A stretch of 64,000 nucleotides of DNA, from NCBI RefSeq assembly GCF_015040615.1, contig NZ_CP060402.1, forward strand, positions 1,488,001 to 1,552,000, written 5' to 3'. This document shows, in pieces, positions 31,698 to 34,779 of the stretch; the first letter of the stretch is position 1, and each line of letters starts with the position of its first letter. A model generated the notes under the pieces. The model was not told the DNA's origin. It saw only the letters and a program-made list of their open reading frames with translations, and searched no databases. This stretch comes from Microbacterium sp. YJN-G (GTDB taxonomy: Bacteria > Actinomycetota > Actinomycetes > Actinomycetales > Microbacteriaceae). The position numbers and the translations under genes are program-made.

Positions 31698-32273
31698 ATG
31701 CCGAGTCCTGATCCGTTCGACGCCCAGCTCTCCGAGGCCACCGAGCGCATCCGGAGCGCGGTGCGCGCGGTCTCGGCATCGAACCCCGTCGTCGTCATCG
31801 ACGGACGCAGCGGAGCGGGCAAGAGCAGCCTGGCCGCACGACTGGCACGCGCGTGGCCGCTGCGCACGCCCGTGCAGCTTCTCGGGCTCGACTCGGTCTA
31901 TCCCGGCTGGGACGGGCTCGAACAGGGCGGGGAGATCGTCCGCGAACGCGTCCTGGTGCCGCACGGTCGCGGGCTCATCGGCACCTGGCGGCGCTGGGAC
32001 TGGGAGCACGAAGAAGAGGCCGAGGCGCATGCCGTCGACCCGGCCCTCGGACTCATCGTCGAGGGATGCGGCGCCCTCACCACGGCATCCGCCCGCCTCG
32101 CCGATGTGACGGTGTGGGTCGATGGGCCCGCCGAGACGCGGCGCAGGCGCGCGATCGCGCGGGACGGCGAGACCTTCCGGGCGCACTGGGACATGTGGTC
32201 GGCGCAGGAGGAGGCGCACATCGCCCGCCACGATCCCGCGGCACTGGCCGGGATCTCGGTCGTCGTACCGTAG
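31698..32273 (+). CDS. P-loop NTPase, uridine kinase-like
   Basis: 191 residues. Walker A is IDGRSGAGKSSLAARLA; a possible Walker B Asp is in LLGLDSVYPGWDGLE, and LIVEGCGALT and VWVDGPAETRRRRAIARDG resemble the lid of nucleoside or shikimate-type kinases. Actinobacterial homologues are labelled AAA family ATPase or uridine kinase-like. Substrate not determinable. It stands alone between dinB and the convergent DUF2017 gene. Confidence 0.75.
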   Translation: MPSPDPFDAQLSEATERIRSAVRAVSASNPVVVIDGRSGAGKSSLAARLARAWPLRTPVQLLGLDSVYPGWDGLEQGGEIVRERVLVPHGRGLIGTWRRWDWEHEEEAEAHAVDPALGLIVEGCGALTTASARLADVTVWVDGPAETRRRRAIARDGETFRAHWDMWSAQEEAHIARHDPAALAGISVVVP

Positions 32274-32280
32274 CTTCGGC

Positions 32281-32817
32281 TCAGCCGGTGTTTCGGTCGG
32301 CGAGGCCGATGAGGTGATCCAGCCGGTACCCCAGCCAGTCGTACGTGCTGAACCGCGGGTCGTCCGCGGCGTGGGTGTCGTGCACCCCGATCCCCAGGCG
32401 CGATGCGAGCACGAGTCTGATGGCGGCCAGCGTGCGCAGCCAGGCGTCGAGGTGCGCCGGATCGATCGAAATGGGGCGCGTGGCCAGGGGATCCGCCTCA
32501 CTCGATTCGGCGTCACCCGATTCCGCATCGACCGATTCCGCGTCGTGCTCGATCGTGTCGTGCTCGAAGATCTCGAGCGTGGTGCGCACCTCCAGGGCAT
32601 CCGCCAGGCGCTGGTCGAACAGATCGTCGCGCGTCGCCCGCCGGTAATCCCTGGCGGCCTCGGCATCGTCGGGGTAAGGATCGGGGGCGAGCCGGTTCAG
32701 GGCTGCGTCGCCGGCGTCGCGGGGTCCATCCAGCAGGGCGATGAACTCGTCGACCAGCCCGAGCAGGTGGTGGCCCTCCACGATCGCGAGGGCGAGCAGC
32801 AGGGGAGAGGCGGTCAC
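32281..32817 (-). CDS. DUF2017 family protein
   Basis: 178-residue helical protein of the DUF2017 family, which commonly follows clpS in actinobacteria. It begins MTASPLLLALAIVEGHHLLGLVDEF; the middle has a 25-residue acidic run of Asp-Ala-Glu-Ser repeats (DAESVDAESGDAESSEAD), and the C-terminus includes LDAWLRTLAAIRLVLASRLGI. The GTG at 32817 overlaps the clpS stop by 4 bases (GTGA), so it is translationally coupled. Biochemical role unknown; association with ClpS-dependent proteolysis is inferred from constant linkage. Confidence 0.8.
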   Translation of the reverse strand: MTASPLLLALAIVEGHHLLGLVDEFIALLDGPRDAGDAALNRLAPDPYPDDAEAARDYRRATRDDLFDQRLADALEVRTTLEIFEHDTIEHDAESVDAESGDAESSEADPLATRPISIDPAHLDAWLRTLAAIRLVLASRLGIGVHDTHAADDPRFSTYDWLGYRLDHLIGLADRNTG

Positions 32818-33104
32818 TGCGGCGCCCGCCTGACCGTGGCCCACAGACCGAACCCGTGCATCGCCTGCGCGTGCACTTCCATCGTCTCGCGCGGACCCGT
32901 CGCGACGATCGCGTGCCCGTCGTTGTGCACGGCGAGCATCAGCCGGGTGGCCTTCTCCTCGGGGTATCCGAAGTAGGTGCGGAACACCCGCACCACGTAG
33001 CTCATCAGGTTGACGGGGTCATCCCACACGATCAGCTGCCACGGCACGAGCGGCGCCGAGGTGAGCTGCTCGTCCGCGACGGGGACGGATGCCGGGGTGC
33101 TCAT
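32814..33104 (-). CDS. clpS: ATP-dependent Clp protease adaptor ClpS
   Basis: Adaptor delivering N-degron substrates to the ClpAP/ClpCP protease. 96 residues. The core PWQLIVWDDPVNLMSYVVRVF includes the Asp-Asp-Pro-Asn substrate pocket region, followed by KATRLMLAVHNDGHAIVATG with the conserved His, and the C-terminal MHGFGLWATV. The ATG overlaps the stop of the acetyltransferase-metallopeptidase gene by 4 bases (ATGA), and clpS overlaps DUF2017 in turn, forming a tightly coupled three-gene operon. Confidence 0.95.
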   Translation of the reverse strand: MSTPASVPVADEQLTSAPLVPWQLIVWDDPVNLMSYVVRVFRTYFGYPEEKATRLMLAVHNDGHAIVATGPRETMEVHAQAMHGFGLWATVRRAPQ

Positions 33105-33952
33105 GCCCACCCCAGTTCGTGCAGCTGCGCGTCGTCCATTCCGTAGAAGTGGGCGATCTCGTGCACGAGGGTGGTGTGGATCTCCTCGCGGAGCTCTCCC
33201 TCGTTGCGGCAGGCCGCGAGATGCGTGTGCCGGTACACGACGATGCGGTCGGGCAGTTCTCCGAGCCCGTAGGTGCCGCGCTCTGTGAGCGCGAATCCCT
33301 CGTACAGCCCGAACAGCTTCTCGCCGTCCTCGGCGGCATCCTCGACGACGAAGACCACGTTCTCGAGGCCGTCGACCATGTCGTCGGGCAGGCGGTCGAG
33401 CTCGTCGATGACGAGCTGTTCGAAGGCTTCGGCATCCATCTCCATGCCGAGGCGCAACTGCATGTGAACCCGTCGCCCGTGCCGGGCCAGGTCCAGCCGC
33501 TGCTCGGCATCCGTCAGGGCCCGCTGGAAGTCGCTGTCCGGCACGGGATGCTCCTCGAAGCCGGCCGAGGTGTAGAACGGCGCGTTCCACGGCACGTCGG
33601 CATAGGTGCGCAGCGTCACGACCCTCGCGCCGTGCTCGGCGGCCTCGTCGACCGCGGCGTCCAGCAGCGCGCGGCCGTGCCCCCGCCGGGTGTGCTCCGG
33701 CAGCACGGAGAGCTGTTCGATGTGCGCCGAGTCGTCGTGCTCGATGACATGCACGAAGCCGACAGGCGGCCCGTCGTGCTCCTCAGCCACGACGAGCACG
33801 AACCCCGGTTCGTCGATTCGCGTCTGCCCGGAAGTGGGAGCACCCCAGCCCGTCATCCCGAAGAGCGGCTCGAACAGCCCGTCCGCGGCAGCCTCGATCG
33901 CTGGGAGCCGATCCAGGTCGGACTCGGAGGCAGGGCGGACGTGCGAGCGCAT
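33101..33952 (-). CDS. GNAT acetyltransferase fused to a minimal zinc metallopeptidase
   Basis: 283 residues with two enzymes in one chain. The N-terminal 150 residues form a GNAT fold: PPVGFVHVI strand, IEQLSVLPEHTRRGHGRALL with the acetyl-CoA loop RRGHGR (89-94), and WNAPFYTSAGF. The C-terminal 115 residues match the small zincin-like metallopeptidase family: FEQLVIDELDRLPDDMVDGLENVVFVVED, then HEIAHFYGMDD with H264, E265, H268 and Asp. In most genomes the latter is a separate protein of about 115-120 residues. The ATG is 6 bases after TAGCAT. It heads the clpS-DUF2017 operon. Confidence 0.88.
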   Translation of the reverse strand: MRSHVRPASESDLDRLPAIEAAADGLFEPLFGMTGWGAPTSGQTRIDEPGFVLVVAEEHDGPPVGFVHVIEHDDSAHIEQLSVLPEHTRRGHGRALLDAAVDEAAEHGARVVTLRTYADVPWNAPFYTSAGFEEHPVPDSDFQRALTDAEQRLDLARHGRRVHMQLRLGMEMDAEAFEQLVIDELDRLPDDMVDGLENVVFVVEDAAEDGEKLFGLYEGFALTERGTYGLGELPDRIVVYRHTHLAACRNEGELREEIHTTLVHEIAHFYGMDDAQLHELGWA

Positions 33953-33958
33953 ACCTCG

Positions 33959-33964
33959 ATGCTA
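33959..33964 (-). promoter_or_regulatory. -10 box TAGCAT for the GNAT-metallopeptidase/clpS operon
   Basis: TAGCAT on the minus strand, 6 bases from the ATG at 33952; leaderless arrangement. Confidence 0.55.
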
Positions 33965-34040: not shown

Positions 34041-34117
34041 TGGGGTGAGTAACGGGGCTTGAACCCGCGACCTCCTGGACCACAACCAGGCGCTCTACCG
34101 ACTGAGCTATACCCACC
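34041..34117 (-). tRNA. tRNA-His(GTG)
   Basis: Complete cloverleaf on the minus strand: acceptor GTGGGTA pairs with TACTCAC (one G-U). Anticodon GTG lies in a CTGGTTGTGGTCCAG arm; the T arm contains GGTTCAA. The discriminator is C73 and the base before position 1 is G, giving the G-1:C73 pair characteristic of histidine tRNA. CCA is encoded (34041-34043). Confidence 0.95.
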
Positions 34118-34152: not shown

Positions 34153-34779
34153 TTACATGTTGGAGGTGAACTCTGACACGGTGCGCGCTGCGAGTTCCTT
34201 CGCCTCATCCGAGGACGGGCCGGGCTCGGCGACGAACACCGCTTCGCGGTAGTACCGCAGCTCACGGATCGACTCGAGGATGTCGGCCAGGGCGCGGTGG
34301 CCGCCGTTCTTCTCGGGGGCCTGGAAGAAGACGCGCGGGTACCAGCGGCGGGAGAGCTCCTTGACGCTGGAGACGTCGACGTTGCGATAGTGCAGGTACT
34401 GATCGATGCGGGGCATGTACTTCGCCAGGAACATGCGATCGGTGCCGATCGTGTTGCCGGCGAGCGGAGCCTTGCGCTCGAGCGGCACGAACCGCCTGAT
34501 GTAGGCGAGGGTCTGCTCCTCCGCGTCGGCCAGGCTCACCCCATGGGGGATCTCCTCGATCAATCCCGAGGTGCTGTGCATGTTCGTCACGAACTCGTTC
34601 ATGTTCGCCAGCGAGGCGGCACTCGGCTTGATGACGATCTGGAATCCGGGATCCGCCGGACGCAGCTCGAAGTCGGTGATGACGACCGCGATCTCGACCA
34701 GCTCGTCGACCGCCAGGTCGAGACCGGTCATCTCGCAGTCGATCCAGACGAGCCGATCGTTCTCAGACGCAGAAACCAT
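34153..34779 (-). CDS. orn: oligoribonuclease
   Basis: DEDDh 3'-5' exoribonuclease degrading short oligoribonucleotides and linear cyclic-dinucleotide products. 208 residues. Exo I: LVWIDCEMTGLDLAVDELVEIA; Exo II around NEFVTNMHSTSGL; Exo III: HRALADILESIRELRYYR, with the conserved His and Asp. YRNVDVSSVKELSRRWYP is typical of Orn. The ATG at 34779 lies 6 bases after TAGGAT. It is divergent from tRNA-Arg. Confidence 0.95.
   Translation of the reverse strand: MVSASENDRLVWIDCEMTGLDLAVDELVEIAVVITDFELRPADPGFQIVIKPSAASLANMNEFVTNMHSTSGLIEEIPHGVSLADAEEQTLAYIRRFVPLERKAPLAGNTIGTDRMFLAKYMPRIDQYLHYRNVDVSSVKELSRRWYPRVFFQAPEKNGGHRALADILESIRELRYYREAVFVAEPGPSSDEAKELAARTVSEFTSNM

Follow-up and report, generated by a model that had tools for sequence, protein, structure and literature searches.

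The locus and its gene order

The window analysed here is a stretch of 64,000 nucleotides from Microbacterium sp. YJN-G. It contains a minus-strand operon of three genes, the first of which encodes a GNAT acetyltransferase and a mini-zincin metallopeptidase joined in one chain, the second the adaptor ClpS and the third a DUF2017 protein [Table 1]. The initial annotation had described a GNAT domain and a HEIAHFYGMDD peptidase in a single chain of 283 residues, followed by clpS and DUF2017 with 4-base overlaps at both junctions, and this is borne out in full: both Pfam domains score above their cut-offs, the fusion stop and clpS start overlap in ATGA, and clpS and DUF2017 overlap in GTGA. The overlaps are valid for starts at 33104 (clpS) and 32817 (DUF2017), the entries 32814-33590 and 32281-32844 of the ORF list being over-extended.

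Table 1. Features of the GNAT-zincin/clpS locus (positions in the window)
Feature	Position	Strand	Remarks
GNAT-Zincin_1 fusion gene	33101-33952	minus	ATG start, 283 aa
GNAT domain, residues 1-165 of fusion	33458..33952	minus	Pfam Acetyltransf_1, 9cr5, motif conservation
Mini-zincin domain, residues 166-283 (HEIAHFYGMDD), with stop codon	33101..33457	minus	Zincin_1, 3e11
clpS	32814-33104	minus	96 aa; PF02617 70 bits (cut-off 23)
DUF2017 gene	32281-32817	minus	GTG start, 178 aa; PF09438 107.9 bits (cut-off 25)
Promoter-like TAGCAT	33959-33964 (feature 33953..33964)	minus	6 bases 5' of fusion ATG; putative function
Convergent P-loop-like gene	31698..32273	plus	3' of operon, not an operon member; conserved neighbour
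Oligoribonuclease-like (RNase_T) gene	34153..34779	minus	Upstream; PF00929 98.5 bits

The single reading frame is no accident of assembly, since both domains are matched in 44 of the 120 listed homologues (of 513 found) and, among the matches listed, 10 of 198 genomes of the genus match residues 1-283 without a stop. In all 10 of these fused genomes, the gap between the GNAT and zincin domain matches is 5-8 residues. An AlphaFold2 model of the fusion, made from an 18-row alignment, has a mean pLDDT of 85.5 and a pTM of 0.67, with residues 209-217 below 50. Of the flanking genes, the convergent one scores below cut-off with Pfam AAA models (22.6 versus 32.6), and the RNase_T gene lies near the zincin or the clpS block in most of the family stretches compared.

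The acetyltransferase domain

The N-terminal domain belongs to the GNAT superfamily (Acetyltransf_1, 55.4 bits against a cut-off of 20.7), in which the acetyl-CoA loop has the form Q/R-x-x-G-x-G/A. The loop glycines of the fusion, G91 and G93, are invariant across the 18 alignment rows. When the loop is aligned on GxG, T88 takes the place of the Q/R residue, and the plain loop pattern matches 7 of the 10 fused domains, not those of L006, L008 and L010. The motif WNxxFY, which we take to be the site of the usual GNAT catalytic tyrosine, is present in all 10 fused GNATs of the genus.

The closest solved relative of this domain is the acetyltransferase PA2271 [pdb:9cr5], aligned over fusion residues 4-169 with E 1.6e-20. 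The two have the motif WNAPFY in common, although the matched chain is a single GNAT of 174 aa; a literature search found no paper on the PA2271 substrate. The top-scoring NCBIfam model is that of another GNAT, the ribosomal protein S18-alanine N-acetyltransferase RimI (TIGR01575), but the domain reaches only 33 bits, far below the equivalog cut-off of 86.4, and RimI identity is therefore ruled out.

The zincin domain

The C-terminal part of the chain is a Zincin_1 domain at residues 196-282 (89.6 bits, cut-off 22.4), and its closest solved relative is the mini-zincin Acel_2062 [pdb:3e11; residues 172-282, E 2.7e-28]. As in Acel_2062 and TTHA0227, mini-zincins of the Zincin_1 (DUF1025) family, the motif HExxHxxGxxD lies near the C-terminus. 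This zinc motif is intact in all 57 zincin domains from the genus and in all 54 from other genera. We know of no substrate for any mini-zincin. Extracts of the structural work on this family report that the active site of 3e11 holds a water in one monomer and is empty in the other, and that Acel_2062 forms a dimer in solution (PMC3890501). The architectures that those extracts describe are the domain alone, with TPR, in transmembrane or septum-type proteins and with a signal peptide; neither a GNAT fusion nor a link to clpS is among them.

ClpS and DUF2017

Besides its Pfam match, the ClpS protein scores 120.3 bits with NCBIfam NF000668 (cut-off 86) and aligns with ClpS relatives in the PDB. 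Across the genus loci [WN][DN]D is found in 56 of 57 sequences and VHxxG in all 57; we assume DD and VHxxG to be the positions of the ClpS pocket. Leu/Phe-transferase (PF03588) has no match in this genome, as opposed to 4 matches in 14 control genomes, and N-degrons would therefore have to arise by cleavage. This zincin may be the enzyme that makes them. Extracts of PMC5515868 state that E. coli ClpS substrates start with Leu, Phe, Tyr or Trp, and that in mycobacterial ClpS some pocket residues differ, its role being called open in 2017.

In the phylum sample, all 30 ClpS loci have a DUF2017 gene no more than 1.5 kb from clpS. A search for a solved relative of the DUF2017 protein found none. 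The oxidative-stress regulator AosR is a possible relative that presumably requires a CxxxC cysteine pair. CxxxC is absent from the DUF2017 domains checked (57, 20 and 30), and the DUF2017 protein scores 19.8 bits with the AosR model (NF051854) against a cut-off of 260.

Linkage of the zincin to clpS

The 57 loci compared within the genus were the best-scoring ones and those of some chosen genomes rather than a random draw. Zincin, clpS and DUF2017 follow one another in this order in all of them, with or without a GNAT, and the zincin stop lies inside ATGA or GTGA in 52; 47 of these operons are unfused. For other genera of the family, stretches of about 12 kb (some shortened by contig ends) were taken from one genome each of 54 genera with a listed zincin position. 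The order is clpS-DUF2017-zincin in 19, mostly with orn upstream (e.g. L124, L127, L130, L132 and L137), one locus (L165) has the zincin first and clpS about 770 bases further, and 34 have a zincin without clpS in the stretch (up to 6 kb). There are thus two linkage orders within Microbacteriaceae, zincin first in the genus and zincin last in these 19 genera, and the zincin is linked to clpS-DUF2017 in this family but also exists unlinked.

At the level of whole genomes, the fusion query finds a match in 212 of the 249 from the family, in a few cases perhaps by way of the GNAT only; ClpS is present in 176. Inspection by eye finds only two ClpS-bearing genomes, G397 and G441, without a fusion-query match, and about 38 genomes with such a match and without ClpS. 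Five small genomes of 0.9-1.5 Mb (G202, G207, G209, G210 and G212) have neither match. Outside the family a wider linkage was sought and rejected, as none of the 30 phylum ClpS loci has a zincin within 1.5 kb. By eye, zincin and clpS are adjacent in a single genome (G000) of the phylum sample (119 genomes, 73 with ClpS), the next closest spacing being ~6-25 kb in one family (f16). In the order sample (79 genomes, 69 with ClpS) the two are adjacent, again by eye, in three genomes, each a member of the genus of the window.

Distribution of the fusion and of stand-alone GNATs

The fusion is real and unusual. Nearly all genomes of the genus (196 of 198) match the query, and nearly all of the matches listed, apart from the 10 full-length ones, cover the zincin part alone. 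Among the matches listed for the 249 family genomes, from 85 genera, the window's own is the only full-length one. A scan of named genomes with GNAT sequences confirmed at least 540 relatives, of which the best 80 loci were analysed. Fifteen are fused, 13 titled Microbacterium and two titled only Actinomycetota; they include M. esteraromaticum, M. azadirachtae and M. resistens. As four of the 15 lie on contigs already represented among the fusions of the genus sample, the GNAT tree holds 21 distinct fused rows. The fusion, which the initial annotation had proposed to look for elsewhere, is not confined to this strain. The two domains are already named jointly in database protein names, and a literature search found no publication naming a GNAT-zincin fusion.

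The remaining 65 of the best 80 are stand-alone GNATs, from Microbacterium, Arthrobacter, Brachybacterium, Clavibacter, Cryobacterium, Knoellia, Nocardioides and others. The flanking sequence of these 65, covered for up to 4 kb on either side, contains neither clpS nor a zincin nor DUF2017 in any case. Eight ORFs neighbouring stand-alone GNATs, searched with Pfam, gave two cytochrome b matches, a piece of an ABC transporter and five without a match, which offers no hint of function.

Fused and stand-alone GNATs appear to exclude one another. A search with the GNAT part in 40 chosen genomes of the genus (E up to 1e-15) found a stand-alone copy in 0 of 10 fused versus 18 of 30 unfused genomes (Fisher p 0.0008). 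One of the 18, in G184, is matched over half its length only; the 17 full copies fall with the stand-alone rather than the fused forms in a tree that includes 21 fused rows and 24 of the 65 stand-alone ones. More than one query match was seen by eye in 0 of 10 fused against 58 of 186 unfused genomes (p 0.035), most of the extra matches not being among those listed. This exclusivity does not survive phylogenetic control, which leaves no more than 5-6 independent pairs and has no power (median p of 0.5 by sign test); in 200 random pairings a fusion and a stand-alone copy never occurred together.

Selection was compared by the Nei-Gojobori method over 45 pairs of fused genomes, with synonymous sites near saturation. 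Median dN/dS is 0.33 for the GNAT, 0.18 for the zincin, 0.11 for ClpS and 0.47 for DUF2017. The GNAT is thus under purifying selection where present, which argues that it has some role while fused.

Probable gain and loss of the fusion

The fused genes have a promoter-like element in common. TAGCATCG or TACGATCG stands just 5' of the start codon in 10 of 10 fused but 8 of 46 unfused loci of the genus, and in all 15 fused named loci; the other unfused loci have TAGGCT (16) or neither motif (22). A motif directly before the start codon is the layout expected of leaderless transcripts, and the fusion gene is likely to have a leaderless start. The eight unfused loci that bear the motif are near kin of the fused ones on a locus tree. 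Because TAGCATCG precedes none of the 65 stand-alone GNATs (a generic leaderless-type pattern, TAnnnT, precedes 26), the idea that the promoter arrived together with the GNAT was rejected as unproven.

The locus tree was built from the zincin, ClpS, DUF2017 and the convergent P-loop-like gene of 56 genus loci and four outgroups. Fused loci are scattered over it, requiring 5 Fitch changes, or one gain and six losses, the six losses then falling inside a clade of 35 loci with a support of 95. A 39-row tree gives 6 changes.

Three of the eight motif-bearing unfused loci likely carry a remnant of the GNAT start, as judged from their first codons. The first 33 nt of L012, L013 and L014 are identical to fused GNAT starts at 23, 21 and 22 positions, respectively, and 0, 25 and 10 of 2000 codon shuffles did equally well. 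L018 and L019 have no significant remnant in this test (278 and 846 of 2000 as good), and in L015, L017 and L025, also without a remnant, the start leads straight into the zincin. This start-anchored DNA test was made after two others: a tblastn search, which was weak (best E 0.006), and a local peptide test with 300 shuffles, in which L013 (0) and L014 (12) stand out and L012 (85), L018 (121) and L019 (135) do not. Three database proteins (P0043, P0045 and P0046) have parts of the GNAT missing and an intact zincin; these are few, mostly from short contigs, and could be assembly errors.

On a free tree of GNATs the fused forms do not make one clade (3 changes), although a single clade is not rejected (p-AU 0.18). 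The L011 GNAT lies beside stand-alone forms from Knoellia and Nocardioides, and one Brachybacterium stand-alone falls among the fused, placements that make a second fusion possible. One further protein, P0047, is a stand-alone GNAT of 170 aa from an 'Arachnia' bin that groups among fused Microbacterium GNATs; it is possibly mis-binned or a split fusion, and was placed only in the first GNAT tree, which contains one wrongly cut row (P0007).

A peptidase linked to ClpS and a probably grafted acetyltransferase

The reading that best accounts for these data, and which we think probable, is that of a ClpS-linked peptidase carrying an exchangeable, grafted acetyltransferase. The functional unit would be zincin-clpS-DUF2017, in which a small, probably cytosolic, zinc metallopeptidase is co-made with the ClpS adaptor. 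The peptidase most likely cleaves proteins or peptides, whose new N-termini or remains would then pass to the Clp protease and the adaptor ClpS. Within a single branch of Microbacterium, a GNAT gene that had stood alone would have come to be fused, in frame, to the zincin gene at its 5' end. As the spacing of the junction is alike to within a few residues, this most likely happened once, and the fused copies seen have the one leaderless-type promoter motif. The GNAT would afterwards have been lost by in-frame deletion, or have decayed, several times; it has the look of a graft peculiar to one lineage and lost again from some close relatives. Where it persists, its substrate is most likely still the one acetylated by its stand-alone relatives, either a small molecule or a peptide, and it would be carried along rather than serve ClpS.

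The initial annotation had read the operon as a module that writes, trims and reads N-degrons. This is supported in part, in that a putative peptidase with an intact zinc motif occurs beside clpS-DUF2017 in two different arrangements; a place of the acetyltransferase in the ClpS pathway is not supported, and GNAT, peptidase and ClpS are not conserved together. Such a module, in which the zincin would expose N-termini, the GNAT cap some of them against ClpS by acetylation and ClpS deliver the rest, would fit a single chain whose stop overlaps the clpS start, the glycines and WNxxFY kept in the fused genomes, and a genome in which cleavage would be the source of N-degrons. We nevertheless hold it to be very unlikely: among the matches listed the fusion occurs in 10 of 198 genomes of the genus, the same operon is found without a GNAT at 47 loci, repeated loss or decay in close kin is likely, none of the 65 stand-alone relatives among the best 80 of at least 540 lies near clpS, and the RimI model is not reached. 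A one-chain switch, in which capping by the GNAT would decide which products of the zincin ClpS can read and lineages without the GNAT would be ungated, seems to us very improbable. A grafted, exchangeable enzyme accounts better for the acetyltransferase than a writer of N-degrons does, and the association of the peptidase with ClpS is better supported than that of the GNAT.

Three other explanations bear on separate parts of the reading. The GNAT might be an acetyl-CoA sensor or a dimer scaffold controlling the zincin rather than an enzyme with a substrate of its own, which would accord with the short, similar junctions, with the dimer that Acel_2062 forms according to the extracts of PMC3890501 and with the faster evolution of the GNAT; given that WNxxFY is retained in every fused genome and that most genomes of the genus keep the zincin without a GNAT, we consider this distinctly unlikely. 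That the same GNAT family was fused several times to the same zincin, instead of once with subsequent losses, is suggested by the 5 Fitch changes, the fused taxa on separate branches and the grouping of the L011 GNAT with stand-alone forms, but the similar junction, the common promoter motif, the likely remnants in unfused kin and a single origin that the AU test does not reject make it quite unlikely. As to the operon itself, zincin, clpS and DUF2017 could be co-expressed by accident and have no shared function. The restriction, as judged by eye, of adjacent zincin and clpS genes to the window's genus in both the phylum and the order sample, the 34 of 54 other genera with a zincin and no clpS within up to 6 kb, and the ~38 family genomes with a query match and no ClpS would all be expected of this, yet the linkage is retained in two gene orders, the zincin stop lies in ATGA or GTGA in most genus loci and, by eye, only two of the 176 ClpS-bearing family genomes are without a query match, so that an accident is in our view unlikely.

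The linkage of a zincin with clpS-DUF2017 in two orders within Microbacteriaceae is a testable lead that mini-zincins may supply or assist degradation through ClpS in bacteria which, as in the case studied here, show no Leu/Phe-transferase. The apparently exchangeable and repeatedly lost GNAT also urges caution in taking domain fusion as a guide to function.

Related operons and further observations

Extracts of a paper of 2006 describe an actinobacterial operon of ClpS, an uncharacterized helical protein, a JAB metallopeptidase, a ThiS/MoaD-like protein and cysteine synthase (PMC1779556). It resembles the operon of the window in having clpS and the helical protein, most likely DUF2017, beside a metallopeptidase gene, and differs in that the peptidase is JAB there and a mini-zincin here. 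Prok-JAB matches occur in 5 of 120 family genomes, not including that of the window, and a Pfam scan of seven ORFs that follow DUF2017 at five phylum loci found no JAB. Replacement of JAB by the zincin is therefore a suggestion only, JAB being rare in the family but also missing from these seven phylum ORFs. In the 19 genera with the zincin last, it occupies the place of other genes, the JAB peptidase among them, of the operon in the extracts of PMC1779556.

Database sequences in which zincin and ClpS (P0057) or DUF2017 and zincin (P0084, P0103 and P0104) are fused were discounted as Rosetta-stone evidence, since P0057 and P0104 appear to be frame-shifted and each of the four is represented by one sequence only. 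In the order sample, many genomes have another Zincin_1 match of lower score, which in several of them lies, by eye, ~60-115 kb from clpS. The DUF2017 protein, which has no cysteine, carries an acidic insert with DAES-type repeats (EHDAESVDAESGDAESSEAD) encoded at 32491-32550 of the window. A tRNA-His gene at 34041-34116 lies between orn and the fusion gene, and a tRNA-like sequence was seen by eye directly 5' of the zincin in about ten unfused loci of the genus.
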